Shown piece after piece: positions 1 through 21,784 of a stretch of DNA of 22,141 bases (positions are counted from its first letter, which is position 1; every line of letters begins with the position of its first letter). A program made the translations under genes and the position numbers. This DNA is from a virus: positions 1 to 22,141 of the IMG/VR virus record IMGVR_UViG_3300024339_000093; one strand, 5' to 3'. Below the pieces are notes generated by a model. The model was not told where the DNA came from. It searched no databases and saw nothing but the letters and a program-made list of their open reading frames with translations.

Positions 1-1126
1 ATGCATCATCAGCACTACCTAAATAAAGGCTATCTCGAATCATCTGAGGCAAAACCGAAACCGACAACAAAAGATCAGAGCCAGCCCCCCATAACGTATG
101 CTTTATCCCTTTCTTAGTAATGATAATTTCATGACCGGAATCTTTGTTGATAACGGGAGCATCATAAAACCCATGATCAAATGCATGAGACAAGGCATCT
201 TTTGTTGACTCGATTACCCCACTTTTTATATCTATAACTGGCGCATTCTCAGGAACACGACTTGCTGAATCAGGCAATTGCCACCGCTTCACTTTTGGGT
301 TCATCTTCGAGGGCTGCAGCACCAGCTTCGAGCGATCTGCCTTCAGAAGATCCGGCCTGAATACAATTATGGATTTGGTTAACTTGCTATCGGAGGGATT
401 GTGGCCTATATTGCCTTTAGAAACGTTGGTGGAGCGAGCTGTGTCATCTCCACTCTTTGAACTAATAGTGTCCGTCCTCGTATTAGTGGCGTTTCGTCCT
501 TCCTCCTTCTCAAAAGCAGTAAGCAGCCAAGTCTTTGCTGCACCATTCCAAGCAAGACGCACAGAGACAAAATGGTCATCAGTCTCTAACCTTATCCTAT
601 TCTTTGTTTTTGAAACAACAGACATGAACTGAAGGATTCTTGGCAGAGCATCAATCACTCCCGGATGGTATTTAACAAGTTTCGACAGCCCATAACCGTC
701 ACTTTTACCAGTACCTTCCTGACCCCAGACTAAGTCAATATCACCAATCTCAGGGTGATATAGGGCTGCGATAGCCTCACCATTACGCTCTTTTTTCAGC
801 CGCGCGATAGCACCAGCAGGATTATGCCGGTACTCACGGTGAATAGGGCCAAAATCACCATCAGCAGGCAATTGCCACCGCTTCACTTTTGAGTTCGTCT
901 TCGAGGGCTGCAGCACCAGCTTCGAGCGATCTGCCTTCAGAAGATCCGGCCTGAATACAATTATGGATTTGGTTAACTTGCTATCGGAGGGGTTGTGACC
1001 TATATTGTTAACACCTGTGGATGGTTGCGCTGCGAACGATTCGGACGTTTGCGAGACGCTACCTTCTGGTATTGCACTTGGCGCGGAGCGAACCTTCCAC
1101 ATGGTCTTAAAAGAAATAATACGCAT
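1..1126 (-). CDS. MuF-associated polymorphic toxin-like protein (PBECR1-type nuclease plus LPD3-like domain), 3' end cut off
   Basis: An open frame of 375 codons runs off the left edge. The start ATG overlaps the stop of the MuF gene (TAATG), so translation is probably coupled. Residues about 90-207 look like the phage Barnase-EndoU-ColicinE5/D-RelE-like nuclease family (PBECR1). Visible signatures are IHREYRHNPAGAI, GDIDLVWG, GLSKLVKYHP, ETDDHFVSVRL and KTWLLTAFEK. Residues about 297-375 resemble an LPD3-type domain (NKDSGHEIIITKKGIKHTL), which also occurs in the portal tail. A 47-residue linker is present twice, at residues 41-87 and 239-285, encoded by a 143-bp direct repeat. The family is thought to comprise RNA-cleaving toxins linked to phage head proteins. 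The function here is inferred. No immunity gene is visible; one could lie beyond the edge. Confidence 0.75.
   Translation of the reverse strand, partial: MRIISFKTMWKVRSAPSAIPEGSVSQTSESFAAQPSTGVNNIGHNPSDSKLTKSIIVFRPDLLKADRSKLVLQPSKTNSKVKRWQLPADGDFGPIHREYRHNPAGAIARLKKERNGEAIAALYHPEIGDIDLVWGQEGTGKSDGYGLSKLVKYHPGVIDALPRILQFMSVVSKTKNRIRLETDDHFVSVRLAWNGAAKTWLLTAFEKEEGRNATNTRTDTISSKSGDDTARSTNVSKGNIGHNPSDSKLTKSIIVFRPDLLKADRSKLVLQPSKMNPKVKRWQLPDSASRVPENAPVIDIKSGVIESTKDALSHAFDHGFYDAPVINKDSGHEIIITKKGIKHTLWGAGSDLLLSVSVLPQMIRDSLYLGSADDA
271..413. repeat. 143-bp direct repeat, copy 1 (within toxin-like gene)
   Basis: This matches 865-1007 with four mismatches in 143 bases (at 298, 303, 398 and 404), offset by 594 bp. 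The offset is a multiple of three, so both copies are read in the same frame. They encode the linker that precedes each toxin-type domain, ending in KVKRWQLP. Confidence 0.95.
865..1007. repeat. 143-bp direct repeat, copy 2 (within toxin-like gene)
   Basis: This is the partner of 271-413, about 97% identical and in frame. It encodes residues of about 41-87 of the minus-strand toxin-like protein, just before the PBECR1-type domain. Recombination between the copies would delete 594 bp and leave an intact frame that joins the N-terminus directly to the second domain. Confidence 0.95.
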
Positions 1127-3300
1127 TACTTTTTCCTTAAAATATTCTGAATGACCCGAGTGAACTCCGGGTCATGGTCTTTCTCAGGGATATCCAGACG
1201 AATCCAAGTCCCACGGCAATTGTGGACAACCACTCCCCCACGAATCACATAACTTTCATCATCATCAACCCCGAAGTTGTACAGCCTGCGATTCCTAACA
1301 TTTCTCCGAGTCACCTTTTCAACAGTCAAACTACCAAACTTGTACTCACCAGAATGGTTCATTGCCAATCTAGCAACAGACTCAGAAACTGCAGAAGGGT
1401 TACTTTTTGCAAAAGCGGCATCAAACCTCATAGTTGTCCAACCAAGATCACTCATTTCTGCATCACGCGCTTCATCCCTGCCAGCATTTAACCTCCCATG
1501 CCATGGCGCACCATCGATTTCTACACATATCATTTCATTAGGCAGTGCAATGTCTGCGAAAAAACGCTTAGGACGACCAAGCGAATCAACAGAATTTCTA
1601 ATTACGGGGTGCTGCAGAGATACCGATAACCCAAGTCTACTCAACATATCCCCAATATTTTTTTCAGATACAGAAGGGGTGTAGTTTTTTGTACCATTGG
1701 ATAATGCACTTTTCCTTCTAACCTCTGCTGTTTGCATGTGCGAGTACCCACGCTCTTTCATAACAGCTCTTCCTGAAGAGGTTAGCTCTCTACGCTGCTC
1801 CACAGTCAACTTACTCATTCGATGACAGTTTCCAGCAGAAGCGGCCTGTTTCGCCGCCTCAAGCGCAACTGGATCATTGGTTGAGAATTGATTTTTTCCA
1901 TTCTTCGGGTGGCATGCAGCAGAACAATAAGTCACATGGTCATGCTTAATATTTATGAACTCTTTTCCGCACGTAGGACATATCTTGCAGACAGCCACAA
2001 CGCTATCATTACAATTAATTTCACCAGCGGGAACCCACCCACGCTTAGTTAGAACCGGGTGCTCAGGTGTCATAGAAGGAATGCTACTTCTATTTTTGCC
2101 GTCAAAAGAGGCATGCAGCGTTACGACTTCCCCGGAATATATCTCGTCTTCCAGAACCCAATTCACCGCCCTAAACCTGCCTTTATGCGTCAGAACAAGA
2201 TCACCGATCATGATGTCGCTTATACATTTCCAGCCATCGGTCGTATAGATTGGGACCGTAGGATCAACAAAACAATGAGGGTGCACCGTTCCAGCAGGAA
2301 CCCACCAAGTCTCTGAGGCAGTACGGTCAACCATCCCCATCGGAGTGCGTTTGCGAGCAGCAGAAGACCGACCGACATTCGACTTGCCAATCCATACCTC
2401 CTTCGCGCCATCCTTATCACGCTTGGCAGGCGGTACTACGGTAAACACCAGCCCATCGATCGACCGACAGAACTTGCACGCACCGTCATACATCTCAAGA
2501 CGGCGTACCTTGGCCCCATCCGGCATAGAGGCAATGAACCCCTGCCCGAAATTCTCCCCCCCTTCAGTCAGAGCAATACGCCGCCAATCCCGGTTGAAAG
2601 TGCCGAAATCATCAAACAGTTTCGTTTGCAGAGAGGAGACCGCCTCAGCATGGGGGGTGCCGCTGAACTCGTCCTCCTGCCAGCCAATAACAGCCATACG
2701 CAACTTGGCCCGCACAGAGCTATGGAGGTTTGATACGTGTTCGGCGCACTTAATCTGACCGAAGCGGAGTGCCGCGTGCTGCGCTTTTTTCAACTGCACG
2801 CCCGCACGATAACCCCCTGCCTGATACGACACCTCAGCAACAAGGGCAGAAGCTGCAGCCTCGGAGATTTTATCCATCCGAGAGTTCACCCGCCCCATCA
2901 TCTGGGCCTTCGATACCAGCCATTCGGCCTCATCGATCAACACGTCCTCCGGGAGATACCGCTGGACGAGGTACTCCACAACCAGCATCCAGTCGTAGAG
3001 TTCGAACTTATTAGTCGGGAGGTTTTCGAGGTAGATTTTTACAGCCTGCAGCTCGGCACGTGACCAGCGAGGGTGAATATTTGGGGCTGTATCAACCGGC
3101 TTACGATCGCGCCCACGGTCACGGTGACCATTAATCCAATACATCAACTCCGACTGCAGGGAACCATGGCGGTCAAGGCCGTGATTTGTCCACTCCTCAA
3201 TAAGCTGCCGGATGAATGGAGATTCATGGGGTCGCCACACCCCGTCATCATCAAACGAATCGGCCTTGAGCAGATCAGAGGACAAGCAATGATCACACAT
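1126..3300 (-). CDS. MuF-type minor head/head morphogenesis protein interrupted by an intein
   Basis: This is a phage Mu gpF/SPP1 gp7-like minor capsid protein that acts at the portal during head assembly. The family motif near the C-terminus, HPHCRGTW, is split after HPH by a 352-residue intein. Splicing would leave an extein of about 372 residues. CKFCRSIDG and the helical region before it also fit the family. The ATG at 3300 overlaps the portal stop (TGATG) and has AAGGA six bases upstream. A GTG three bases earlier is possible but badly spaced. The position after portal is typical. The toxin-like gene starts on its stop codon. The N-terminus MCDHC is a possible metal-binding knuckle. The MuF call is strong; the splicing activity is inferred. 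Confidence 0.88.
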   Translation of the reverse strand: MCDHCLSSDLLKADSFDDDGVWRPHESPFIRQLIEEWTNHGLDRHGSLQSELMYWINGHRDRGRDRKPVDTAPNIHPRWSRAELQAVKIYLENLPTNKFELYDWMLVVEYLVQRYLPEDVLIDEAEWLVSKAQMMGRVNSRMDKISEAAASALVAEVSYQAGGYRAGVQLKKAQHAALRFGQIKCAEHVSNLHSSVRAKLRMAVIGWQEDEFSGTPHAEAVSSLQTKLFDDFGTFNRDWRRIALTEGGENFGQGFIASMPDGAKVRRLEMYDGACKFCRSIDGLVFTVVPPAKRDKDGAKEVWIGKSNVGRSSAARKRTPMGMVDRTASETWWVPAGTVHPHCFVDPTVPIYTTDGWKCISDIMIGDLVLTHKGRFRAVNWVLEDEIYSGEVVTLHASFDGKNRSSIPSMTPEHPVLTKRGWVPAGEINCNDSVVAVCKICPTCGKEFINIKHDHVTYCSAACHPKNGKNQFSTNDPVALEAAKQAASAGNCHRMSKLTVEQRRELTSSGRAVMKERGYSHMQTAEVRRKSALSNGTKNYTPSVSEKNIGDMLSRLGLSVSLQHPVIRNSVDSLGRPKRFFADIALPNEMICVEIDGAPWHGRLNAGRDEARDAEMSDLGWTTMRFDAAFAKSNPSAVSESVARLAMNHSGEYKFGSLTVEKVTRRNVRNRRLYNFGVDDDESYVIRGGVVVHNCRGTWIRLDIPEKDHDPEFTRVIQNILRKK
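1219..2274 (-). mobile_element. Intein with zinc-finger and Vsr/DUF559-like homing endonuclease
   Basis: The element covers residues 344-695, counted from the GTG at 3303. It begins with Cys (CFVDPTVPIYT) and ends in VVVHN followed by Cys, a normal splice junction. The HINT N-terminal block includes SDIMIGDLVLTHKGRFRAV, block B is TPEHPVLT, and the C-terminal block is DDESYVIRGGVVVHN. Between them lie a Cys-rich finger (CPTCGKEF then YCSAAC), a basic NUMOD-like stretch (NQFSTNDPVALEAAK), and a nuclease of the Vsr/DUF559 type with CVEIDGAPWHG, D/RD pairs and GWTTMRF. All key splicing residues (Cys1, block B Thr and His, penultimate His, terminal Asn, Cys+1) are present, so it should be splicing-competent. 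The nuclease also looks intact. Confidence 0.9.
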
Positions 3301-6143
3301 CACTTATCCTTCAGAATTAAATCGCGCTCATCGTCGGCGTTTTTGTCGTCCGCATCATCAGCATTGTCGGTGGTGTCTTTGGGATTATCAGCCTCCTGCG
3401 CACCCACAAAATGATGTTTTCCCGTAACCCGGTCCTTCAGGATAGCACCAGCCTCCCCATGGTCCACCACATCATAGCCACGCTCTGCCCTTTTCTTGTG
3501 GCCAAGGAACGAACCCCATGGAACGCCGACATTGCCGCTGTCGTGGGATACTGTGCAGCCGTCCTCACCATGTGCGAGCACGCGACCAGAACCAATACCT
3601 TGCTCGGGGTGGTTGAAGAAAATCTCATCATCAATACCAACCCCAAGATCATTGGCCTTCGCCAGAACATTATCACTGAGAGAGAAAAACATCTTACCGT
3701 CAGAGTCTCGTTGGACATCACGCAATAATTGGACTATATTGATATTAGACCTCAGTGCTTGAGCCGATGGATGCGTCCTCGGTGGCCCCTCTAAAGCGGG
3801 GGACTCGCTGGGGTCGTTTAATTCTATCGATGTGAGCGCATGCATGTTTTTTCTGCTCGCCCCATCAGTCAACTGATAATCCTTCACAGTCAACTTCACA
3901 CGATATAGCTTTCCTCCCATTTCAACAGAGGAGTAGAAGCGATGTACCGCTTTAACGTCCGAATTACCTTTGTTATCGGTATGAGATTCAGCCAACACAG
4001 CATGGCGAACAATATCTTCCGCTCCAGACAAAATCATCTTCAGGTCTGTAGACGTTTGCCCTTGCCACTTTGCGAGCTTCTTCCAATCTTGCCGAGTTAC
4101 AATAAACCCCCAGCCAGTATCATCGTTATGCACTCCATTCTTAGGCCATTTTTTCAAAAACGAAACAGCCTCAGAGCGTAACTCACGCAACCCCATATCA
4201 GTATTCTTTTTGCTGACAGAAATATTTACAACCTGAATGCTCTTTTTTTCAAGACCACTTCGCTCTCCGTAAGAGCAATACTTTCCGTCATCATCATGAC
4301 ACCCATTGGCCTTCAGTAGCCCGCCCTCGCCCCCCCGATCATCAAGAATGTCTGGCGAAACCACTCCAGAAGAGTCGGCTTTTCTAAGCGTTCCCGCCTC
4401 CTCTCCTCCTTCTCTACCATCGCCGCTCTCCGAGGGAACAGTCGCGCTTCCTCTGCCCGCATTACCGCTGCCTTTCTGCGACGAATCGCTCTCTTCTTTT
4501 TCCGAAGTTTTTTCGTGTGCATTTTCATCTTCTTCACCCTCCTGTTTGAAATCAGGATGCTGCTCTTCACCATCCAAATCAGCATCGTCCGGAACCTCCC
4601 CAGAAGCACCCTCTTCCGCACCCTCTTCCATCTGCTTTTCCTGCTGCCAGATAGTAGCCAAAGACGGATTGACAGGAGCCTCACCCCAACCCTCTTCTAA
4701 CGGCGCATACCCCTCTTGAGCACGCACCTCATTAACCGTGAGCACCGTCTTTTTCAGCTCGTGTTCTTTGTCCTGATCGGTATCGTCCATGCCGGTCCAG
4801 CGGAACACCCACTGCTCGCCAAACTCTTGGACTATGAAATCGGTATAGATGGACTCGAAATACCCCAACAGAGGCTTGAGTCCCTTATCCTTTGAATCTG
4901 CAATACGCTCGGCAGTATCGGACCCAGAAAGAGCAGACTTCGAAGAGCTAAACGACTCGAAATTAATCTCATCCGGGGCGATACCGTAGATGGCACAGAT
5001 CATCGAGGTCAGAAAAGTCATCCATTTAGAGAAGTACATCTCGTCGAACTCTTTACCGAAGTTCTCAAAAGATGCCTTCGACTCCTGATCCTTCGATATC
5101 ATGACGGGAAGAGTCCATGAGTTGTGCACACCCTTCACCATCGCATTCCAGTACCGCTTAAATGCCTGCAGGTCCGTCTCGTTGTATTCGCCAGACAAAT
5201 GCAGCATCCCCTTCGGGATCGCGTTATCAGAAAACCCCTTGATATTGAGAGTCATGGCATTAAGGAACCCGGTAACCACTCGGACCAGCAGCTCGGTCTC
5301 AGAGAGACCATAACCACCAGCATTTACATCACTACGGGGATTGCGAGGCTCGTAGATCAGATCTTCGAAACCATAGGCGGTGGAGATACGCCCCTGAATA
5401 ACCTGCAGGGCAAAAATATCTTCATCCCCCCGGTACCCTGTATCTGGACAAAGACGAATGGTCGCTCCATCAACAGCGTACAGGCCATCCAGCCCGAGCG
5501 AGCGATCGCGCTTGTACTCGGTCTCGATAGCCGCCGAATCCATAGACAATGTGTCACGAACCAGTTTAGCCATGAACGCACGCATATTGTCACGCTTGAG
5601 CCGCCTACGCTTGCGCGGATTGAACTCCCAGCCGTTATTCACCACGAACTGCTGCATCAGATTGACACTGCGCTTCTCGATATCTGTAATCTCGTGATCA
5701 GAATCCCGATGCCGGATAGCAAAACCGGTACCCTCTCGGGTCTCCTGAATGCGGCAAAATGCCTGCACCTGCCGAACCCGAGTCATAACAACCGCGCTCA
5801 ATACAGGAGTTTGGTCGACCATATTGCGCAACCCCTCAAATGTCATGGAACCGGGCCGCTCCATATAGTCACCCATCCGGGCCATCTGCCACTCATCCTG
5901 ATAAACCGACTGCATCCCCTTGTCTCCGGCATTTTTGGAGGGAAACGGGACGATGTTGGAGTATTCATTGGCCTTGAGAATATGAGGCTGTGAGGACATC
6001 TCTCTGTAAATCTCTTCAATCATCGGGGCCAAGCGAGCGACTTCAGAGCGGTCAACAGCAGCTTCCTGTATCTCGGACTGAGCATCAAAACGCTCATCCG
6101 CAGGAGCAGAATCATTAAAGGCGGTTCTTTGAGTATCGTTCAT
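3300..6143 (-). CDS. Phage portal protein with long C-terminal extension (LPD3-like and SH3-like domains)
   Basis: Residues about 95-500 form the portal core of the phage_portal family. Landmarks are DLIYEPRNPRSDVN (261-274), SETELLVRVVTGFLNA and YGIAPDEINF. Portals form the dodecameric ring through which DNA is packaged. At 947 residues this is much longer than the usual 400-550. After an acidic, low-complexity linker (about 505-600) comes a domain at 635-775 (DDTGWGFIVTRQDWKKL, VHRFYSSVEMGGKLYRVKLTV) that resembles LPD3-type polyvalent-protein domains and aligns by eye with the C-terminus of the toxin-like gene. A small beta-rich SH3-like module follows at about 830-915 (GRVLAHGEDGCTV, LGHKKRAE). 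The tail ends in Asp/Asn-rich sequence. The gene overlaps MuF by TGATG. The ribosome binding site is weak (GCGGA). Confidence 0.9.
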   Translation of the reverse strand: MNDTQRTAFNDSAPADERFDAQSEIQEAAVDRSEVARLAPMIEEIYREMSSQPHILKANEYSNIVPFPSKNAGDKGMQSVYQDEWQMARMGDYMERPGSMTFEGLRNMVDQTPVLSAVVMTRVRQVQAFCRIQETREGTGFAIRHRDSDHEITDIEKRSVNLMQQFVVNNGWEFNPRKRRRLKRDNMRAFMAKLVRDTLSMDSAAIETEYKRDRSLGLDGLYAVDGATIRLCPDTGYRGDEDIFALQVIQGRISTAYGFEDLIYEPRNPRSDVNAGGYGLSETELLVRVVTGFLNAMTLNIKGFSDNAIPKGMLHLSGEYNETDLQAFKRYWNAMVKGVHNSWTLPVMISKDQESKASFENFGKEFDEMYFSKWMTFLTSMICAIYGIAPDEINFESFSSSKSALSGSDTAERIADSKDKGLKPLLGYFESIYTDFIVQEFGEQWVFRWTGMDDTDQDKEHELKKTVLTVNEVRAQEGYAPLEEGWGEAPVNPSLATIWQQEKQMEEGAEEGASGEVPDDADLDGEEQHPDFKQEGEEDENAHEKTSEKEESDSSQKGSGNAGRGSATVPSESGDGREGGEEAGTLRKADSSGVVSPDILDDRGGEGGLLKANGCHDDDGKYCSYGERSGLEKKSIQVVNISVSKKNTDMGLRELRSEAVSFLKKWPKNGVHNDDTGWGFIVTRQDWKKLAKWQGQTSTDLKMILSGAEDIVRHAVLAESHTDNKGNSDVKAVHRFYSSVEMGGKLYRVKLTVKDYQLTDGASRKNMHALTSIELNDPSESPALEGPPRTHPSAQALRSNINIVQLLRDVQRDSDGKMFFSLSDNVLAKANDLGVGIDDEIFFNHPEQGIGSGRVLAHGEDGCTVSHDSGNVGVPWGSFLGHKKRAERGYDVVDHGEAGAILKDRVTGKHHFVGAQEADNPKDTTDNADDADDKNADDERDLILKDK

Positions 6144-7140: not shown

Positions 7141-7298
7141 TACAGCTTCCCCCGTTCAATCAAAATATCAGGAGAAACACCACACATCTCTGCCAATTCT
7201 CGGTAATCAGTAGGCATCCGGTTATAACGCCGCCTCCAGTAGAACCTTCGGATAGCACGCCACGGTGATGGGAACCCCACCAGCAAGAAATCAACCAT
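7140..7298 (-). CDS. 52-residue HTH-like small protein
   Basis: This small gene is locked between two others by overlapping codons: its ATG overlaps the stop of the Dam-like gene (TGATG) and its TAG overlaps the GTG of the ASCH-like gene. GGAGG lies 7 bases before the ATG. The N-terminal half is aromatic and Arg-rich (SPWRAIRRFYWRRRYNRM), the rest looks like a helix-turn-helix (DYRELAEMCGVSPDILIERG). Function unknown. The tight coupling on both sides is the main support for it being real. Confidence 0.65.
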   Translation of the reverse strand: MVDFLLVGFPSPWRAIRRFYWRRRYNRMPTDYRELAEMCGVSPDILIERGKL

Positions 7299-7798
7299 CA
7301 AACACCCTCCATAAAAACACCACGATCACGCAGCTTCCACAAAGCCTCAGAACACTCTTCACCGCAGGCAAACATTACGGTCCCGGCACCAGAACGACCC
7401 TTCTTGTGCTCGTTCTCAAGCCCCGGTACAAAATCAATTCGACCCGACAGAAACAGTGTCCTTTTCGCCTTCTTCATCGCCTCCTGACACCAAGAGGCAT
7501 CGGTACGACTGAATACCATGGCAATACCGTTGTTATGATCGAAAAACCGGCGCATCCAAAAGCTGGTATCGACACCGTATGGTGGATTCATCCAGACCCG
7601 ACCAAACCACTCCTTCTGCAGCCCGTTATCAAAAACGGTGTACTTGGTGGTGGCAGGAATGAAAGACTCCATATCGTAGGGAGAAGCCGGATCAAGATCG
7701 AATTGCAACCCCAGCTCATCGAATACCCACGCAGGCGTATACCATTCAACACTCTTTCTTGCGTGCATCTTGCGGGAGACACCAAACATTCCGCTCAT
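7298..7798 (-). CDS. Phage DNA N6-adenine methyltransferase (Dam family of phages)
   Basis: The 166-residue protein matches the phage DNA N-6-adenine-methyltransferase family: VEWYTPAWVFDELG at the N-terminus, FDLDPASP, and the catalytic WMNPPYG, with a later GRIDFVPG segment. The family methylates adenine and commonly protects phage DNA from host restriction. The chosen ATG at 7798 overlaps the upstream stop (ATGA). The frame extends further upstream to 7891, but that part overlaps the preceding gene and is not conserved-looking. It is the second methyltransferase in the operon, alongside the ParB-fused enzyme. Confidence 0.85.
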   Translation of the reverse strand: MSGMFGVSRKMHARKSVEWYTPAWVFDELGLQFDLDPASPYDMESFIPATTKYTVFDNGLQKEWFGRVWMNPPYGVDTSFWMRRFFDHNNGIAMVFSRTDASWCQEAMKKAKRTLFLSGRIDFVPGLENEHKKGRSGAGTVMFACGEECSEALWKLRDRGVFMEGV

Positions 7799-8250
7799 TT
7801 CTCGAATAGACCCACAACCTTGCGGTAGATGTCCTTTATAGAGACCCATGAAATCGGTACAGACAGGGAGTAATCTCCCGCCCCACCGCACTCCTCACAA
7901 AACTCACCATCAATCACCCCCGAATCGCAATGCTCGCAAGCCAATATTACAGTTTCCTTAAACTCTCCGGAGAGAGCCTTTTTTGCACCATTTTCAGCCG
8001 TTAACTCGGACGGCAAAACAGTGTGGCTATCGGGCACCCGAAACCAACCCATGCGATTGGCAGCGTGCTCTTCCAGAGAGGAGAGGTCACCGTCAATACT
8101 GGTGATCCAGACATAAACATCAGGAGGAAGTATTTTTAGTAGTTTTGTGATGGCGAACTCATCCGCATCATCACTGCGAATAATCAGAATAGATCCGGGC
8201 TTCAGGGCAGAGGGATCAATCACAGAGGCATTATCTAAAATATTACTCAT
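7795..8250 (-). CDS. Hypothetical protein with C-terminal zinc ribbon
   Basis: 151 residues, not recognised. The N-terminal half is a possible Rossmann-like alpha/beta segment (SILIIRSDDADEFAITKLLK, DVYVWITSIDGDLSSLE). The C-terminal third has paired CEHC and CEEC knuckles with GGAG after them, as in DnaJ-type zinc ribbons. It overlaps the 81-residue gene upstream by 8 bases and the Dam-like gene downstream by ATGA. Confidence 0.65.
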   Translation of the reverse strand: MSNILDNASVIDPSALKPGSILIIRSDDADEFAITKLLKILPPDVYVWITSIDGDLSSLEEHAANRMGWFRVPDSHTVLPSELTAENGAKKALSGEFKETVILACEHCDSGVIDGEFCEECGGAGDYSLSVPISWVSIKDIYRKVVGLFEK

Positions 8251-11968: not shown

Positions 11969-12277
11969 TTAATGCACCGTCTCGTTGTGTTTGGCCCTAG
12001 ATTCCTTCAAGGCTCTATTAACCGAATCGGTACTAACCTGAACATTGATATTTAGGGAGACGATTAATCTTTGAGATTTCTCTCCCGGCTTGTAATCAGG
12101 GATAAATACCAATCCGCGTTCAACCAAGTCCATGAACCCACTCCAGATCTCGGCATGAGTCACACTACCGGGGGGAATACCTGAAGCAATCTGGTCGATC
12201 AGAATGCGCACATACCCATTGTCGAATGGCATCGAAGACTTATCATCTGGTGATTTATTCGACTCCCAATCAAACAT
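11969..12277 (-). CDS. Hypothetical protein overlapping the ParB-methyltransferase
   Basis: 102 residues, not recognised. The ATG (MFDWESNKSPD) overlaps the end of the methyltransferase gene by 8 bases, which supports this start over the longer in-frame extension. The middle looks globular (NGYVRILIDQIASG, HAEIWSGFMDLVERGLVFIPD) and could be a winged-helix-like fold. The C-terminus is basic. Confidence 0.6.
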   Translation of the reverse strand: MFDWESNKSPDDKSSMPFDNGYVRILIDQIASGIPPGSVTHAEIWSGFMDLVERGLVFIPDYKPGEKSQRLIVSLNINVQVSTDSVNRALKESRAKHNETVH

Positions 12278-13640
12278 CTTTGGCCTCCTCCCAACTAGCA
12301 GTGAGGTCATCGACAATCTTCTTGGGGAAAGTCGCGCCAGTGAGAGCGTGTACAGGTGCCCTACCGGTGTATTTGTAGTACCGGGCACAGATCACATCAA
12401 CGAACCGGGGATCCAACTCCATCAACCGGGAAGACATGCCCATCCGCTCTGCAGCCATTAAGGTGGTACCAGAGCCACCGAAACCATCAATGACGATATC
12501 CCCCCTACGGGCAGAGTTCCGGAGTAGTCGCTCCCAGAGGGCTACCGGCTTCATTGTGGGATGAAGTGGACTTCGCTTGGGCTTGGGACAAAAGATCATC
12601 GATGTCTCAGCCTCCTCAACCACTGTACTCCCATCGATATAGATCACTTTATCGTCAGAACGGATCGCATATCGACCATCTGGCATCTTCTCAAACGGCG
12701 GGTATTCCCCAACGTCTTGAACTGTAATGTTTTTCCTGCCCCCGTACCAGCGGTGTGCGGCCCCTGTCTTCCATCCGTAGAGAATAGGCTCAGAGATAGG
12801 CTGGTAGTCCAAACGCCCCAGCACGAACTGATCCTTGCGCCACGTGAGGCATCCGGAGAGTTTGAACCCCGCCTCAATGAATGCACTACGGAAATTGATA
12901 CCCTCAGAGTCCGAGTGAGAAACATACATCGGCGCACCGGGCTTCATATTCAAGTAGGAGCAGCTATAGAAATCGAGCAGAAACTGCCGGAAGTCACCGT
13001 CCCCCATATTGTCATTCTCGATCTTTCCGGCAAGATCTGATTCGTAATTGACGTTATAGGGAGGATCACAGAGCTGAATGTCGGCCTTCTCCCCATCCAT
13101 CAGAGTCATCCAGTCATCGGATGTGGTAGAACTCCCGCACATCAACCGGTGTGGCCCCAGCACCCAGACATCTCCTAACTCCGAATGAGCCTCGTCTGGA
13201 ATGTCCGGCACATCATCAGGGTTTTTGTCTTCAGGATCCAAGAGATCCGGATCCAAAAGATCTGTGAGATCGTCACCAAACCCCAGAAGCTCAAGATCGA
13301 AATCAGCCAGATGAAGATCCGCTATTTCTAACTTTAGTAGATCGTTATCCCATTCTGCCCAATTTGCAGACTGATTGGCGAGCAGCCGAAAAGCCTTTAT
13401 TTGAGTATCTGTAAGCTCATCTGCGAGAGCAACCGGAATGGTTTTTAGCCCTAACACCTTGGCAGCCTTCAGCCGAAGGTGTCCATCAACAACAGTGCCA
13501 TCAGACTTAGCCACAACAGGGATTCTGAAACCAAACTCTTTGATTGCAGCGACCATCTGGTCAACGACAGCATCATTCTTGCGAGGATTTCTCACATAAG
13601 CTACTAATTTATCAATCTCCCACTCTTGTACATCAAGCAT
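12270..13640 (-). CDS. ParB-like domain fused to DNA adenine methyltransferase
   Basis: A 456-residue phage modification enzyme. Residues about 8-95 are a ParB/sulfiredoxin-like domain (NPRKND, VVDGHLRLKAAKVLGL). An acidic linker follows. The methyltransferase has catalytic DPPY (192-195) ahead of the SAM-binding FGGSGTT (387-393), the order of the beta class; DPPY suggests N6-adenine. LHPTMKP precedes the SAM motif. This architecture is widespread in proteobacterial phages and is believed to protect phage DNA or mark it. The ATG at 13640 with GGAG upstream fits the usual N-terminus; a GTG at 13688 would add 16 residues with no clear ribosome binding site. Confidence 0.9.
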   Translation of the reverse strand: MLDVQEWEIDKLVAYVRNPRKNDAVVDQMVAAIKEFGFRIPVVAKSDGTVVDGHLRLKAAKVLGLKTIPVALADELTDTQIKAFRLLANQSANWAEWDNDLLKLEIADLHLADFDLELLGFGDDLTDLLDPDLLDPEDKNPDDVPDIPDEAHSELGDVWVLGPHRLMCGSSTTSDDWMTLMDGEKADIQLCDPPYNVNYESDLAGKIENDNMGDGDFRQFLLDFYSCSYLNMKPGAPMYVSHSDSEGINFRSAFIEAGFKLSGCLTWRKDQFVLGRLDYQPISEPILYGWKTGAAHRWYGGRKNITVQDVGEYPPFEKMPDGRYAIRSDDKVIYIDGSTVVEEAETSMIFCPKPKRSPLHPTMKPVALWERLLRNSARRGDIVIDGFGGSGTTLMAAERMGMSSRLMELDPRFVDVICARYYKYTGRAPVHALTGATFPKKIVDDLTASWEEAKDV

Positions 13641-13716
13641 TACATGCTCCACTGTTATATGCGGCAGACAATGCTCTGCCAGACACACTGATAATTCGCT
13701 CCACTACTTCATCCAT
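13633..13716 (-). CDS. Possible 27-residue leader peptide before the methyltransferase
   Basis: An ATG-started frame (MDEVVERIISVSGRALSAAY and seven more residues) begins 6 bases after the zinc-ribbon gene and stops just past the methyltransferase ATG. Such an arrangement could couple translation. AGGA lies 10 bases before its start. Length and lack of homology make it doubtful. Confidence 0.3.
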   Translation of the reverse strand: MDEVVERIISVSGRALSAAYNSGACNA

Positions 13717-16878: not shown

Positions 16879-17533
16879 TTCCCCCCAAAATTGATCGTAA
16901 ATGACGAATGTGTGGCTTGTGAGAACTGTCCTCTTCAGCGTCCGGACCAACAGATCCAGCGATAAACCCCCTAACGCTTTCAGACATAGGTTTTTCAGGA
17001 GTCGGAAGCAGAGACTGCACATAATCGGATGACAAATGCCCTTTTTCATACGCCGCCCTTAAAACCGCATGGCGCGAGGAAATATCATGACCCAGCGATG
17101 GCTTCCAATGGATTGGGATGGTCCCCTCGCGAGCCAGATCCACCGCCCGGTTGTACGAGGATTTGAACGCCATCCTTGCCGCTACATTGTCGCCAGTATC
17201 TATAATCGGCTTGGCATCCATCCATGCTGTAGATATCTCATCAGTCCAAACCACGGTCGCACCCTCGTCTGAAACCTGAACAGCGATAGCCCATGCCTCA
17301 TCAGCAGAGGGGCGACCATCGTTGCTCAGGATCATCAAACGAACATCCGCGAGCTTCGGTAGGAATGGACTGGTCTGAAGTACCCTGCTGAAGCCGTACT
17401 GCACAGCCGACAACGGATACTGCCCGACTCCCTCAACCCAAAGTCTCTTCGCTGCAGAGCTAACAGTCTTCCCATGCATCTCGTAGGCAGCATCTAGAGT
17501 TTCAAGAAAATCACGCTGTTCTCTCCGATTCAT
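16850..17533 (-). CDS. Replication-associated protein following the initiator
   Basis: 227 residues, in the place of lambda P. Its ATG overlaps the initiator stop (ATGA). The N-terminus (FLETLDAAYEMHGK, KRLWVEGVGQYPL) and DGRPSADEAWAIAVQV, VVWTDEISTAW and ARMAFKSSYNRAV are found in phage proteins paired with wHTH initiators. By position it could load the host helicase or otherwise support replication, but no helicase-loader motif is seen and there is no ATP-binding loop. Confidence 0.6.
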   Translation of the reverse strand: MNRREQRDFLETLDAAYEMHGKTVSSAAKRLWVEGVGQYPLSAVQYGFSRVLQTSPFLPKLADVRLMILSNDGRPSADEAWAIAVQVSDEGATVVWTDEISTAWMDAKPIIDTGDNVAARMAFKSSYNRAVDLAREGTIPIHWKPSLGHDISSRHAVLRAAYEKGHLSSDYVQSLLPTPEKPMSESVRGFIAGSVGPDAEEDSSHKPHIRHLRSILGGNASAACSEN

Positions 17534-18504
17534 CCCAGCTCTCCATCAAAAACATTTCCGGTACATGGATCGTCTTCACTCCCGAAGTATTCATCGAGCA
17601 AAGCCTCATTAGCTGCTTTTTTTGCCTCCGGTGACGTATACGATTTTGATTTCAAGTCAAACAGCCCTTTCCAGCCGTTGCGAACCGTCTGATCGACAAC
17701 CCCCTGCTGAGCATCAAACGTACCCTGTACAGCCAACCATTCCTTCTGCTTCATCATCGAAACCCCATCCATGCTGGGGAGTTTTATCCGCATCCGGTAA
17801 GCGATGTATTCCTGCCACGCGCTGAGGTTTAGGCCATCAGGGATGGTCGAGGGGTCAGGGACAGCTCCGGGGATATCCGAAGAGATCACGGTCAACGATG
17901 GTTTTGCAGGAGAGGCATCGGCAACAAAAGGGCTGTAACCCCCCCCGCCACCGATAGGTGGCCCCGATGATGGAGGGCGTGACTCGCCAACAGGGTCTTG
18001 GGGGGTATGGGGGGTTGTATCCTTCTCCTCTTCCTTCTCCTTCTCCTTAGCTTGAACACTAGGTGAACGCTCGCCGAGTGTTCGCCGAACACCATTACCA
18101 GTAGAGGGAGTTGTTCGCTGAACGCTCGCCGTTGTGGGGGTGTTGGTTCGCCGTCTACCAGACGTTTTCGGTATAACACCATCAGGCAGAGGGTGGTAGT
18201 AGGTTGGTTGGTCTATTCTCTGGTGTTTCCAACCACTTACAAGCCAATAACTCTCATTCTGAACCGTATATTCTGTGATTAATTTGGCCTCAATAAGCTC
18301 GTTAACCATCGCGCGAATATCTTCCTTAGAAAAAGCGTCCGCAGGGAAGACTTGCATTTTTAATCTCATGATTTTTGCAGGATGAACGCCAGAATCGTCG
18401 CAAAAAGTCCAAAGCCCAATGAACAGTAGGCGAGCGTTCGGCGAACACTCTACGATCTGCTCAGAAGTCCAGAATTGAGGCTTAATTGACCTTATGCGTG
18501 GCAC
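17530..18504 (-). CDS. Phage replication initiator (winged-helix, DnaT/O-like)
   Basis: About 324 residues. The N-terminus (PRIRSIKPQFWTSEQIVE, ARLLFIGLWTFCDDSG, LKMQVFPAD) is the winged-helix DNA-binding domain typical of phage O-like proteins. A low-complexity middle rich in Pro, Glu and Gly follows. The C-terminus (LNLSAWQEYIAYRMRIKLPSM, NGWKGLFDLK) resembles DnaT-like domains. The GTG at 18504 gives the usual MPRIRSIKPQFW start and has AGGAG 7 bases upstream; a GTG two codons earlier is too close. Repeats inside the gene are a candidate origin. Confidence 0.8.
   Translation of the reverse strand: MPRIRSIKPQFWTSEQIVECSPNARLLFIGLWTFCDDSGVHPAKIMRLKMQVFPADAFSKEDIRAMVNELIEAKLITEYTVQNESYWLVSGWKHQRIDQPTYYHPLPDGVIPKTSGRRRTNTPTTASVQRTTPSTGNGVRRTLGERSPSVQAKEKEKEEEKDTTPHTPQDPVGESRPPSSGPPIGGGGGYSPFVADASPAKPSLTVISSDIPGAVPDPSTIPDGLNLSAWQEYIAYRMRIKLPSMDGVSMMKQKEWLAVQGTFDAQQGVVDQTVRNGWKGLFDLKSKSYTSPEAKKAANEALLDEYFGSEDDPCTGNVFDGELG
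18064..18131. repeat. Candidate origin iterons inside the initiator gene
   Basis: The 13-mer TGAACGCTCGCCG occurs at 18064-18076 and 18119-18131. A near-perfect palindrome GTGTTCGCCGAACAC lies at 18078-18092, and its near-identical reverse complement GCGTTCGGCGAACAC at 18434-18448. GTTCGCTGAAC is at 18113-18123. A purine-rich tract (minus strand) follows at about 18022-18048. Repeats within an O-like gene are the lambda arrangement of the origin. Binding is inferred. Confidence 0.45.
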
Positions 18505-18662
18505 CGACACTCTCCTAACCAGCCTATGAGAACAGGAGTTGGGGCTTCAGATAATGTAACTTCACCCACATCTTCACGATGAGATGGATCTGGCTGAGAT
18601 AAAACAATATCGCTCTCAGTGTTTAAGGAAACCTCAAAGGGGTACATTTTCTTGATTTTCAT
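18492..18662 (-). CDS. 56-residue small protein before the initiator
   Basis: Start ATG (MKIKKMYPFEVSLNTESDIV) and stop inside the initiator's 5' end. Not recognised. It has no strong ribosome binding site (AGAGGAAA is about 10 bases away), so the start is uncertain. It lies just downstream of the short-RNA region on the opposite strand. Confidence 0.45.
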   Translation of the reverse strand: MKIKKMYPFEVSLNTESDIVLSQPDPSHREDVGEVTLSEAPTPVLIGWLGECRCHA

Positions 18663-18678: not shown

Positions 18679-18730
18679 TCTTCAAGAAGCCCCCTCACAT
18701 TGGCCTGCAAGCCAGAGGGGGTTGTTTTTT
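18679..18730 (+). ncRNA. Predicted short RNA, OOP-like by position
   Basis: A predicted transcript of about 52 bases starts 7 bases after the -10 and ends at a strong terminator hairpin. It runs opposite to the replication operon, between the cII-position gene and the initiator, where lambda encodes the antisense OOP RNA. It has no ORF. It would be antisense to the minus-strand early mRNA between the ribbon-helix-helix gene and the 56-residue gene. Not shown experimentally. Confidence 0.5.
18687..18730 (+). terminator. Rho-independent terminator
   Basis: CCCCCTC (18690-18696) pairs with GAGGGGG (18715-18721), extended by flanking pairs and with an inner TGGC/GCCA stem. The tail is TTGTTTTTT at 18722-18730. 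Only the plus strand has the U tract. Confidence 0.8.
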
Positions 18731-18750
18731 GTGGGGTTAAAACAACGTGT

Positions 18751-18778
18751 GCGCAAACGTGCGCAAACGTGCGCAACA
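18751..18778. repeat. Three 10-bp tandem repeats (TTGC-N6-TTGC-N6-TTGC)
   Basis: GTGCGCAAAC repeats with a 10-base period. Read on the minus strand, TTGC is present at 18776-18773, 18766-18763 and 18756-18753, each separated by the same six bases GCACGT. The TTGC-N6-TTGC spacing is that of the lambda CII site. No good -10 lies downstream. Possible regulator site. Confidence 0.7.
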
Positions 18779-18792
18779 GCTCTAGTTCGTGC

Positions 18793-19005
18793 TTATGCGT
18801 GCTGATCGGTATCAACTCCTTCGAATACACTGTTGAGTATGGAATGCTCATTCACCTTCTGCTCGATATGCTCAACCGCTAAATTGGTCAAATACAGACT
18901 GGAGGAGACTCCAGAGAAACTAGCGAGGCGATCCATGATCTGCTTCTGCTCATGCGTCATGTGGGCACTGATAGCCACAGTCTTACTCCTCCGAGGGCCA
19001 GCCAT
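18793..19005 (-). CDS. Ribbon-helix-helix-like regulator in the cII position
   Basis: 70 residues. The N-terminus is basic (AGPRRSKTVAISAHMTHEQK), followed by a helix (QIMDRLASFSGVSSSLYLTNLA) in the pattern of Arc/CopG-type ribbon-helix-helix proteins. GGAGG is 5 bases before the ATG and is encoded in the last codons of cro; the ATG follows the cro stop directly. It is likely a DNA-binding early regulator. It is not a CII homologue by sequence. Confidence 0.65.
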   Translation of the reverse strand: MAGPRRSKTVAISAHMTHEQKQIMDRLASFSGVSSSLYLTNLAVEHIEQKVNEHSILNSVFEGVDTDQHA

Positions 19006-19194
19006 CTATTCCTCCTGTGGATTAAATAAATGTGGAAACCGGCACTTAAAGAACTCGTACCACCCCTTCGGGATTCCTCTTTTTTTCCACGCAGAAACGG
19101 AAGCCAGACTGATACTGCAAATCTTTGAGACACTAGTTGTGCCGCCCAGTAAGTCGATAACGCGTATTGCTTCAATAGATTCTATAGATTCCAT
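19006..19194 (-). CDS. Cro-like repressor
   Basis: 62 residues from ATG 19194, or 66 from ATG 19206. The helix-turn-helix IDLLGGTTSVSKICSISLASV then SAWKKRGIPKGW is the Cro/CI-like pattern seen in short Cro-type proteins. It is transcribed divergently from cI. If transcription starts near 19198, as the promoter suggests, only the ATG at 19194 can be used, on a nearly leaderless mRNA. Neither start has a clear ribosome binding site. Confidence 0.78.
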   Translation of the reverse strand: MESIESIEAIRVIDLLGGTTSVSKICSISLASVSAWKKRGIPKGWYEFFKCRFPHLFNPQEE

Positions 19195-19204
19195 AACAGG
19201 GTCC

Positions 19205-19234
19205 ATCTTAGATAAAACTAAGACTCCATGTCAA
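19205..19234 (-). promoter_or_regulatory. PR-like early promoter of cro
   Basis: Minus-strand TTGACA (19234-19229) and TAAGAT (19210-19205), 18 bases apart. The -10 overlaps one half of the operator at 19207-19222. This would drive the long minus-strand operon. Confidence 0.6.
19207..19222. promoter_or_regulatory. Operator CTTAG-N6-CTAAG at the cro promoter
   Basis: CTTAG-ATAAAA-CTAAG, a perfect inverted repeat extended one base each side (TCTTAG...CTAAGA). It fills the spacer and -10 of the cro promoter. The same motif occurs at the right early promoter at 20605-20620. Confidence 0.65.
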
Positions 19235-19245
19235 CTTATACTAAC
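19230..19245. promoter_or_regulatory. Possible second, degenerate operator in the cI-cro region
   Basis: GTCAA-CTTATA-CTAAC has one good half site. Its reverse complement shares the 10-mer TTAGTATAAG with the operator at 20605-20620. It covers the -35 of the cro promoter and the -35 region of the cI promoter. Confidence 0.4.
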
Positions 19246-19253
19246 CTCTTGTA

Positions 19254-19262
19254 TGCTATAAT
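19254..19262 (+). promoter_or_regulatory. Extended -10 promoter of cI (leaderless mRNA)
   Basis: TGCTATAAT ends 6 bases before the ATG at 19269, so the predicted +1 is the A of the start codon. There is no Shine-Dalgarno sequence. This matches lambda cI transcribed from PRM. Confidence 0.65.
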
Positions 19263-19268
19263 TATTTT

Positions 19269-19658
19269 ATGGGATTTTCAGACAGAATTAATGAGGCTAT
19301 AAGTGAGGCCGGGGTTAAACCGGTTGAGGTTGCTGATGCCGCCGATATCACTGAAGCAACAATGTCTGCGTGGAGGCACGGAAACCCAAAGAAGCCCGCT
19401 GCAGACAATGTTTTGAAGGCGTGTAAATTTTTGAGGATCAATATTGAATGGCTGATCTTCGGAAAGAAGCCTATGTCAATTACAGACAACCACGCTTTAG
19501 TGATTGAGAAGCACCTGAAGCCTCAACATGAAAAGCTGTTAAAGCTCTTCGAAAAACTTCCTCCACATGAACAATCCTTATTGACAGAGAGGATGGAGGA
19601 GCAAGTTGCACACTATGATGATTTGTATAGCGCGATGAAAAAACAGCGCGAAGAATAG
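19269..19658 (+). CDS. CI-type repressor without peptidase domain
   Basis: 129 residues. The N-terminal helix-turn-helix (FSDRINEAISEAGVKPVEVA, DITEATMSAWRHGNPKKPAA) is of the lambda CI type, followed by NVLKACKFLRINIEWLIFGK. The C-terminal half (LKPQHEKLLKLFEKLPPHEQ) is helical and common to short phage repressors. There is no S24/LexA autocleavage domain, so RecA-triggered self-cleavage is not expected; induction probably uses another route. The mRNA appears leaderless. Confidence 0.82.
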   Translation: MGFSDRINEAISEAGVKPVEVADAADITEATMSAWRHGNPKKPAADNVLKACKFLRINIEWLIFGKKPMSITDNHALVIEKHLKPQHEKLLKLFEKLPPHEQSLLTERMEEQVAHYDDLYSAMKKQREE

Positions 19659-19661
19659 GTA

Positions 19662-20471
19662 ATGAACCAACCTGAACTAGCTAGAATTTACTTTCACTCA
19701 GGAACTAAAGAGGGGATCAGAGAGGCCAAAATCGCACTAAGTAGCATTCAGGCAACCTCCTTTCTTCGAGAGGCATTAAGTTATGCCTGTAGTAAAATTG
19801 AAGGCATAGACTCTTTAGGGGTATATATCCTGCTGGGTGCAGATAAGAATGCATATATTGGAGAGACAGAGAGTCTCTGTGAACGCCTCAAACACCATCA
19901 CAGTAAGGATGAGCTGAGTTTTTGGGAAGAAACAATCATCCTTACCGGAAAAGATGACTGGCTAACTAAAAGCCATATACGATACATAGAATCTGAACTC
20001 TTTAGGCGAGCAAAAAAAAGCGGCTGGAAACTGCACAACAAGAAGAACGCTGCAGTCAACGCTGGCAAACTGCCAGAAGCCGACAAAACCATTACAAAAA
20101 GATTCATCCAGCAAGCTGAAACTCTTGTCAGTATGCTGGGGTATGATCTCTTTGACAGCCAAGAGGAGACCCACAAGATAGAAGCCAACCTTTCAATGAA
20201 AGGCAACGAGTACGAAGCATACGCAAACCTAGACCTCAAAACCGGAATAGTCACTGTACTTAAAGACTCTAAAGCAAAAGTAACAGAGGCAGACACAACC
20301 CCTATTAGTGCCCGCAATAGAAGGATGGAGCTGATAGGTAACGAGACCCTCAAAAAAACAGCAGACAATCTTGTTTTTACCAAAAATACTTCATTTAAAT
20401 CAAAAAGTGCGGCAGCAGCAGTGGTTGCAGCACATAGCATTAATGGGCAAAAAAGCTGGAAGACTCTCTAA
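19662..20471 (+). CDS. GIY-YIG nuclease with DUF4357 domain
   Basis: 269 residues, starting 3 bases after cI, so it is probably expressed in the lysogen. The GIY-YIG core begins at GVYIL (53-57) and AYIGETE (64-70), followed by a conserved Arg (R75) and a Glu at 110 in YIESELFRR as the likely metal ligand. The C-terminus (RRMELIGNETLKK, FKSKSAAAAVVAAHSINGQK) is DUF4357. Known proteins of this architecture are poorly characterised. Placement in the immunity operon suggests lysogenic conversion or exclusion of other DNA, but that is inferred. Confidence 0.8.
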   Translation: MNQPELARIYFHSGTKEGIREAKIALSSIQATSFLREALSYACSKIEGIDSLGVYILLGADKNAYIGETESLCERLKHHHSKDELSFWEETIILTGKDDWLTKSHIRYIESELFRRAKKSGWKLHNKKNAAVNAGKLPEADKTITKRFIQQAETLVSMLGYDLFDSQEETHKIEANLSMKGNEYEAYANLDLKTGIVTVLKDSKAKVTEADTTPISARNRRMELIGNETLKKTADNLVFTKNTSFKSKSAAAAVVAAHSINGQKSWKTL

Positions 20472-20487
20472 AACTATTGCTCCACAC

Positions 20488-20509
20488 GTTATTAATCTCT
20501 CTTAATAAC
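20488..20509. repeat. Inverted repeat after the GIY-YIG gene
   Basis: GTTATTAA-TCTCTC-TTAATAAC, perfect 8-base arms. There is no U tract and the stem is AT-rich, so it is a weak terminator candidate or a binding site. Confidence 0.5.
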
Positions 20510-20569
20510 ATCACGTAAAACAGTCTGTCAGGACACAATCAGTGTATCTGAAATATATCCGGCAAAAAA

Positions 20570-20585
20570 CTTAGGTTTAACTAAC
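20570..20585. promoter_or_regulatory. Operator-like site upstream of the right early promoter
   Basis: CTTAG-GTTTAA-CTAAC differs by one base from the operator pattern CTTAG-N6-CTAAG. Its centre is 35 bases from that of the next operator. Confidence 0.5.
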
Positions 20586-20593
20586 TTTTTTCG

Positions 20594-20622
20594 TTGACTA
20601 ATAACTTAGTATAAGCTAAGTT
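20594..20622 (+). promoter_or_regulatory. PL-like early promoter
   Basis: TTGACT at 20594-20599 and TAAGTT at 20617-20622 are 17 bases apart. The -10 overlaps the operator half site, exactly as at the cro promoter. Drives the 99-residue gene and the nuclease. Confidence 0.5.
20605..20620. promoter_or_regulatory. Operator CTTAG-N6-CTAAG at the right early promoter
   Basis: AACTTAG-TATAAG-CTAAGTT, perfect 7-base arms. It has the same motif and the same place between -35 and -10 as the operator at 19207-19222. Confidence 0.65.
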
Positions 20623-20687
20623 AAACCCATATACACAACATCAGAAAACATCACTACACAACAAAGCACAACGTAGAGAGAGCCGAA

Positions 20688-20987
20688 ATGGGAAACGTAA
20701 TATTACTGAAACGGATAGACCCAGACAAGGAATTCAAGGAACTCTGTCAAGAGAAGTACGAAGAACTCCGGGCGCACTGGCTGCACGATCGACAAGACTT
20801 CGATGCCTTGCATCAAATCATGATTGAGTCTCTGGATCACGAAGGTCTTCAAAAAGCAATCCGGGGTCAAGATTACGAACGAATTGGTCGGGCATTTTTA
20901 GACTTCCAAGAGGAATTTCTGAGAGAGAGATCAGAGCGGATTGTTGATCAGGAGTATGGATCCACTAACAACCTGGATGACTTATGA
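20688..20987 (+). CDS. Hypothetical early protein of the right operon
   Basis: 99 residues, not recognised. It is highly charged and mainly helical (KEFKELCQEKYEELRAHWL, FLDFQEEFLRERSERI). It starts after a leader of about 60 bases and ends overlapping the nuclease start by four bases (ATGA). In lambda this region holds recombination helpers and host-takeover proteins; a partner for the nuclease is possible. Confidence 0.65.
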   Translation: MGNVILLKRIDPDKEFKELCQEKYEELRAHWLHDRQDFDALHQIMIESLDHEGLQKAIRGQDYERIGRAFLDFQEEFLRERSERIVDQEYGSTNNLDDL

Positions 20988-21784
20988 GTGAAACATACAG
21001 GGTAAGAGCATCCTCGTGGGCCAGTTTATTTGACTGCGCATACTCATGGCAAGGAACTCACCTCCTCGGAATGAAAAGACCCGGAGGCACGAGAGCTTTA
21101 CTCGGGACAGCGGTCCATGCCAGCACTGCAGTATATGACGGGCACCGCGAAGAGATATCGATGGATGATGCGGCAGATGCGCTCATCGAGACATTACATC
21201 ACCCAGAGTTTGAGGTGAACTACAACACAGACGATCTCACTATACCAAAAGCTGAGGCAATCGGACTGAAGCTACACTCCCTCTACTGTAGAGAAGTGTC
21301 GCCGCAATATGAATTTGCAGCAGTCGAGCGCGAAACAACTCCGATGGATATCGATTGCGGCGATGGAATCATTATCCAGCTAACCGGAACACTCGATCGA
21401 TCCAGATCGGTCGTCGGGAAAGAGGGGCACACGCGAATTGCTGACCTGAAGACAGGTGTGAGAGCAGTACAAAAGGGAGAGGCCAAAACGCAGGGGCATA
21501 AAGCTCAAGTGGGCACCTACGAGCTTCTGGAAGAACACACCACCGGCAACACGGTGGAAAGCCCCGCTGAGATTATCGGCCTCAGCACCTCCGGCACCCC
21601 TAAATATGCAGTGGGCCAGATCGAGAATGCCAAGCAGGTGCTGATCGGAACCGATGAGGCTCCCGGACTGATTGATCTTGCCAAGCAGATGTTTAAAACA
21701 GGATTGTATTACCCAAATCCACAAACTTGGTTATGTAGCGTTCGGTACTGTAGCCGATGGGAGACGTGTCCATATCATGAGTAG
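20984..21784 (+). CDS. PD-(D/E)XK exonuclease of the Cas4/RecB type, with Fe-S cysteines
   Basis: 266 residues. Landmarks are C18 (LFDCAYSWQ), GTAVHAS with H45, LTGTLDRS with D138, and IADLKTG with D154 and K156, the PD-(D/E)XK active site. The C-terminus has C251, C256 and C262, which with C18 gives the four-Cys iron-sulfur signature of Cas4/AddB-like nucleases. The phage probably uses it as a recombination exonuclease. It sits in the early right operon, as red exonucleases do. No single-strand annealing protein is visible in the window. Confidence 0.8.
   Translation: MSETYRVRASSWASLFDCAYSWQGTHLLGMKRPGGTRALLGTAVHASTAVYDGHREEISMDDAADALIETLHHPEFEVNYNTDDLTIPKAEAIGLKLHSLYCREVSPQYEFAAVERETTPMDIDCGDGIIIQLTGTLDRSRSVVGKEGHTRIADLKTGVRAVQKGEAKTQGHKAQVGTYELLEEHTTGNTVESPAEIIGLSTSGTPKYAVGQIENAKQVLIGTDEAPGLIDLAKQMFKTGLYYPNPQTWLCSVRYCSRWETCPYHE

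Follow-up and report, generated by a model that had tools for sequence, protein, structure and literature searches.

The window analysed here is a stretch of viral DNA of 22,141 bp, which is a whole IMG/VR contig and probably a fragment of a phage genome. The genes of its switch region follow the order of lambda in mirror image: an exonuclease operon led by the promoter PL, a GIY-YIG gene and the gene for a short CI repressor, the operator region OR, and then, transcribed from the promoter PR, the genes for Cro, a ribbon-helix-helix (RHH)-like protein and a replication initiator. The genes are as follows.

17530..18510, minus strand: replication initiator, in the position of lambda O; PHROG replication initiation, 1e-35
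18793..19005, minus strand: small RHH-like protein, in the position of cII; Pfam NikA-like, 8e-4, below cut-off
19006..19194, minus strand: cro, encoding a YdaS-type helix-turn-helix (HTH) protein, divergent from cI
19269..19658, plus strand: cI, encoding a 129-aa repressor with an N-terminal HTH and C-terminal helices
19662..20471, plus strand: GIY-YIG/DUF4357 gene (Pfam/PHROG), between cI and PL, in the position of lambda rex
20688..20987, plus strand: first gene of the PL operon, 99 aa, without assigned function
20984..21784, plus strand: PD-(D/E)XK exonuclease of the PL operon; Pfam, 3e-15; PHROG exonuclease, 1e-19

CI matched Pfam HTH_26 (9e-7) and a PHROG transcriptional repressor (3e-11), and its AlphaFold2 model (mean pLDDT 89) contains a confident HTH and helices at residues 85-96 and 99-128. 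No S24 peptidase domain was found among the Pfam and PHROG matches of this 129-aa protein, so induction cannot take the RecA-stimulated self-cleavage route of lambda and must occur by other means, for example through an antirepressor. There are no close homologues of CI in the viral and bacterial genome collections searched, and its nearest CI relatives are about 25% identical to it. A sequence search of the PDB returned no significant relative of CI and spurious matches for Cro, and a fold search gave generic HTH matches (SinR, P22 c2, 434-like). Cro aligns with viral relatives at 31–41% identity, its YdaS Pfam match lies below the cut-off (16.5 vs 30 bits), and the YdaS of the E. coli Rac prophage shows marginal similarity to it (E 0.001). 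RacR was also considered as a sequence homologue of CI and is not detectable as such by BLASTP (E 2.2). The cro start is most likely the ATG at 19194, which would leave a leader of some 4 nt after a predicted +1 near 19198, since the first possible ATG, at 19206, falls inside the -10 of PR.

Several further features of the fragment were observed. The replication initiator gene contains repeats at 18064-18160 and 18421-18455 (GTTCGCCGAAC / GAACGCTCGCCG) that form a candidate origin of the iteron type, as in lambda O, and a tandem 10-bp repeat (GTGCGCAAAC) lies upstream of this gene at 18749-18778. On the plus strand at ~18690-18733, a terminator-like hairpin (CCCCCTC...GAGGGGG) followed by TTGTTTTTT opposes the minus-strand operon. 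Outside the switch region, the ORF at 1126-3303 probably contains an inserted intein, to judge from a weak Hint/intein-like region and a stretch resembling an endonuclease (MTES_1575/DUF559), and the portal protein encoded at 3300-6143 carries an extra LPD3 domain. The fragment, though short, encodes two DNA methyltransferases, one a ParB_N domain fused to an N6/N4 methylase (12270-13688) and the other a Dam-type methylase (7298-7891).

Predicted operators and promoters of the window

The promoters of the two early intergenic regions, and the predicted operators that lie on or beside them, are as follows.

19205..19234, minus strand: PR, the cro promoter; TTGACA (19234-19229), 18 bp, TAAGAT (19210-19205)
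19207..19222: predicted OR1, CTTAGATAAAACTAAG, an exact CTTAG-N6-CTAAG palindrome over the PR spacer and -10; same PR-relative position in 61 of 69 relatives
19230..19245: predicted OR2, GTCAACTTATACTAAC (minus strand GTTAGTATAAGTTGAC), degenerate; position homologous to O2 of relatives
19257..19262, plus strand: PRM -10, TATAAT, ending 6 nt before the cI ATG
20570..20585: predicted OL2, CTTAGGTTTAACTAAC, 35 bp upstream of OL1; ranked first in the window by a matrix derived solely from relatives
20594..20622, plus strand: PL, the promoter of the exonuclease operon; TTGACT (20594-20599), 17 bp, TAAGTT (20617-20622)
20605..20620: predicted OL1, CTTAGTATAAGCTAAG, an exact CTTAG-N6-CTAAG palindrome over the PL spacer and -10; 40 of 69 relatives have an operator pair on the CI side

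A sequence-only reading of this DNA had proposed that the two early promoters share CTTAG-N6-CTAAG as an operator, and the two copies that it named are exact and are the only exact copies in the 22,141-bp record. The core TTAG-N6-CTAA occurs exactly three times in the 22,141 bp (the third copy at 20571), always within the two early intergenic regions, and the motif is not frequent elsewhere in the 22-kb fragment scanned. In 20,000 dinucleotide shuffles of these two regions, three cores never arose (0/20,000), one core in each region arose twice (2/20,000), and a perfect 5-6-5 palindrome with any identical 5-bp half-site in both regions also arose twice (2/20,000). A search of the window allowing two mismatches showed no enrichment (8 matches vs 6.2 expected), and the case for the motif therefore stands on the exact and near-exact copies. 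Two further, degenerate copies had been claimed by the same reading. The copy at 20570-20585 is borne out, with one mismatch to CTTAG-N6-CTAAG, whereas that at 19230-19245 agrees with it at only 6 of the 10 bases specified (12 of 16 are identical to the 20605 site), which is weak by sequence alone, so its support is positional, as the counterpart of O2.

The promoters with a -10 of the form TAAG(A/T)T are as had been described, and at both PR and PL the -10 takes its first four bases from the CTAAG half-site. The plus-strand promoter had been called the right early promoter; its counterpart in lambda is PL, and that of the cro promoter is PR. PL matches 8 of 12 consensus positions. A promoter scan of 18700-21000 gave PR as its only sigma70 match, not above shuffles, and was dropped as proof. 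The right half of OR2 is the -35 TTGAC of PR, a double use that accounts for its degeneracy, and OR2 also stands at the -35 position of PRM. The PRM -10 ends 6 nt before the ATG, so the cI transcript probably begins without a leader, at a predicted +1 near 19269. OL2 keeps its core although it plays no part in a promoter.

Conservation among relatives and operator specificity

Loci were retrieved via the replication initiator and then by Cro alignment, which gave 69 distinct loci, viral or prophage, in which the genes for CI and a YdaS-type Cro diverge. The GIY-YIG gene and Cro alone, used as single-sequence baits, retrieved no relatives, and the loci retrieved with the exonuclease (L006-L008) are without any copy of the motif. 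Sites resembling TTAG-N6-CTAA were found between the CI and Cro genes in 66 of the 69 relatives, and TTAG ranked first of 256 half-sites, with 128 in-switch sites in 66 loci against 25 for the runner-up; enrichment was seen for a gap of 6 bp only. Allowing up to one mismatch, the relatives hold 128 sites in 9.4 kb of in-switch sequence vs 148 in 613 kb outside. Most of those outside belong to a second pair, 0.2–4.4 kb away on the CI side, and such a pair is present in 40/69 relatives, mostly with its sites 24-25 or 32-35 bp apart (32-35 bp in 13 relatives; 35 bp between OL2 and OL1). In most of these 40 relatives the downstream site of the pair lies on a PL-type promoter.

Nearly all intergenic regions of the relatives contain two to four palindromes, of which TTAGG-N4-CCTAA is the commonest, arranged so that O3 sits at the start of cI, O2 extends into the -35 TTGAC and O1 into the -10. 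One site lies over the PR -10 in 61/69, as in the window, and an O2 that overlaps TTGAC and is homologous to the 19230 site is found in relatives such as L100, L146 and L126. Unlike most relatives, the window has no core with up to two mismatches at the O3 position by the cI start (19246-19268). Short CIs are common among the relatives. Two other features of these loci were observed: the cro start follows the -10 by 10 nt or less (mostly exactly 6) in 39 of the 61 relatives with a clear PR, so that their cro mRNA would be leaderless too, and L012, L097 and L099, which share the replication-initiator family, have repressor ORFs with two HTH-like segments before an S24-like domain.

Position 6 of the window sites reads A/T, T/C, G/T and T/C, and the inner G6/C11 of TTAGG-N4-CCTAA is absent, which explains why the relatives-only matrix fits the window poorly: it ranked the 20570 site 1st, the 20605 site 4th and the 19207 site 9th in the window, and the 19230 site went unrecognised. 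As a held-out test the matrix was set aside, as it recovered three of four sites and not cleanly, and positional homology and the TTAG core were relied on instead. The predicted operator specificity of the window phage is diverged, with the inner G/C relaxed; this inner pair is not fixed in the relatives either (the TTAGC class), nor in the published consensus of the CP-933P prophage. Neither this pair nor O3, though most relatives have them, is a defining mark of such a switch.

Within the relatives examined, the recognition helices of CI and Cro resemble each other, and those of the window are similar as well (MSAW in CI, VSAW in Cro). Among distinct CI helices, an Asp before the conserved Trp went with an inner G in a ratio of 18:1, as opposed to 5:8 for other residues (Fisher p 9e-4), in a hand-compiled table of sequences that are related and not independent, so the association is a lead only. 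Both CI and Cro of the window have Ala before the conserved Trp, consistent with a relaxed inner base.

Comparison with known switches

Phage lambda has the same gene order, with operators on two sides, at PR/PRM and at PL, and a leaderless cI. The window is alike in its gene order, in operators predicted at PR/PRM and PL and in a probably leaderless cI, but its operator sequence is different, it has two sites per side vs the three of lambda, and its CI is without the autocleavable C-terminal domain.

The sequence-only reading had supposed a repressor with no known site, and this does not hold, since RacR and PaaR2/YdaS are known to have sites of the TTAG...CTAA family. In CP-933P, PaaR2 and YdaS leave footprints on the intergenic region that overlap PRM and PR, and each of them represses the distant PL933P; paaR2 is leaderless and PaaR2 forms octamers (PMC8630535). 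This system has a short leaderless repressor with a YdaS-type Cro, operators common to PRM/PR and a distant PL, and accessory genes between repressor and PL, all of which are alike in the window (PMC8630535). The operators were compared through the published half-site consensus, GTTTAGTAA (an 18-bp palindrome), which includes TTAG-N6-CTAA, and PaaR2 through its published description (PMC8630535). The differences lie in the toxin-antitoxin operon that holds PaaR2, where the window has the GIY-YIG/DUF4357 gene, in four inverted repeats at PR/PRM plus three OL sites as opposed to two plus two, and in the cII position, occupied by YdaT in CP-933P and by the RHH-like protein in the window (PMC8630535).

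In the Rac prophage of E. coli K-12, RacR yields three complexes with an intergenic region that contains GCCTAA/TTAGGC three times; the divergent repressor/YdaS pair and the TTAGG...CCTAA repeats are alike (PMC5700373). In the K-12 sequence O2 adjoins TTGACA and O1 overlaps TAATAT, also alike, but the Rac sites, TTAG-N7-CTA(A), have a 7-bp gap, one base wider than in the window. Downstream of racR (L246:3130-3170), a TTAGG...CCTAT-like pair 25 bp apart (ATAGGTAATGCCTAAT, ATAGGCTATGCCTAAT) was observed as a candidate OL/PL, and no description of such a repressor-side pair was found in the portion of the Rac literature covered. The TTAG...CTAA switch is thus one already studied in E. coli prophages, and, judged by its DNA, the window phage is a divergent addition to it.

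The probable switch and its alternatives

Taken together, the palindromes are very probably the operators of a temperate-phage lysis-lysogeny switch of the CI/YdaS-type-Cro kind, with CI at OR1-OR2 and OL1-OL2 and Cro probably at the same sites. The shared operator and lambda-like two-sided switch proposed from the sequence are supported by the comparative evidence, and experiments on a related system have shown it to operate in this manner (PMC8630535). From the motif, its positions, the promoter overlap, the gene layout and the conservation in relatives, all read directly in the DNA, we infer binding and repression as follows. The short CI would bind OR1-OR2 and OL1-OL2, and on OR1 and OL1 it would exclude RNA polymerase from the cro/replication and the exonuclease/recombination operons, as these sites cover the spacer and -10 of PR and PL. 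OR2, on the PR -35 and at the PRM -35 position, should therefore set the expression of cI itself, in a direction of autoregulation that we likewise infer. Cro would probably bind or compete for the sites of CI and so favour the lytic state, and OR and OL, which are separated by 1.4 kb, may interact cooperatively or by looping.

It could be argued that the palindromes are mere promoter likeness, that is, two sigma70 promoters with TAAG.T -10s and similar spacers and no regulator, given that the CTAAG half-site falls within both -10s and that PR and PL are alike in sequence. This is very improbable, as sigma70 needs no TTAG half-site upstream of the -10, OL2 has the exact core without a promoter role, and the relatives carry O3 at the cI start and are enriched for the palindrome with a 6-bp gap only.

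Equally improbable is that the sites serve another phage regulator and not CI or Cro. The RHH-like protein (18793-19005) is an uncharacterised putative DNA binder of the early operon, and a factor outside the fragment could also be involved, the window being part of a phage; the Cro-retrieved relatives, however, share CI/Cro and the sites and were not selected for an RHH gene, no RHH relative was found in the first set of retrieved loci, and in like systems the corresponding region is bound by RacR, PaaR2 and YdaS (PMC5700373, PMC8630535). That Cro alone uses the sites, with the divergent short CI acting elsewhere or being degenerate, has a marginally better but still very small chance of being right: CI is more diverged than Cro and has no close homologue, yet its 129-aa ORF is intact, its HTH fold is confident and its recognition helix is like that of Cro, and short CIs are common among the relatives.

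A further and tentative reading, which we regard as possible but doubtful, is that half-sites embedded in promoters hold operator specificity nearly constant, that unrelated phages may thereby share or cross-talk in immunity, and that a CI helix residue may tune the inner base. Fusion of the half-site CTAA to the -10 (C-TAANNT) and, at O2, to the -35 across relatives could act as such a lock, with specificity staying near-constant while CI and Cro diverge to ~25–40% identity. The residue before the conserved Trp of CI (Asp vs Gly/Lys/Ala) may then tune the one free inner base, relaxed in the window phage.

For an uncharacterised temperate phage, the predicted operators are a concrete set open to testing, and a type of switch that had been known from two cryptic prophages of E. 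coli can now be recognised by a single operator code in at least 69 distinct loci of viral or prophage origin. Should the embedding of the operator in the promoter constrain specificity, cross-immunity between distant phages would be predictable from sequence.
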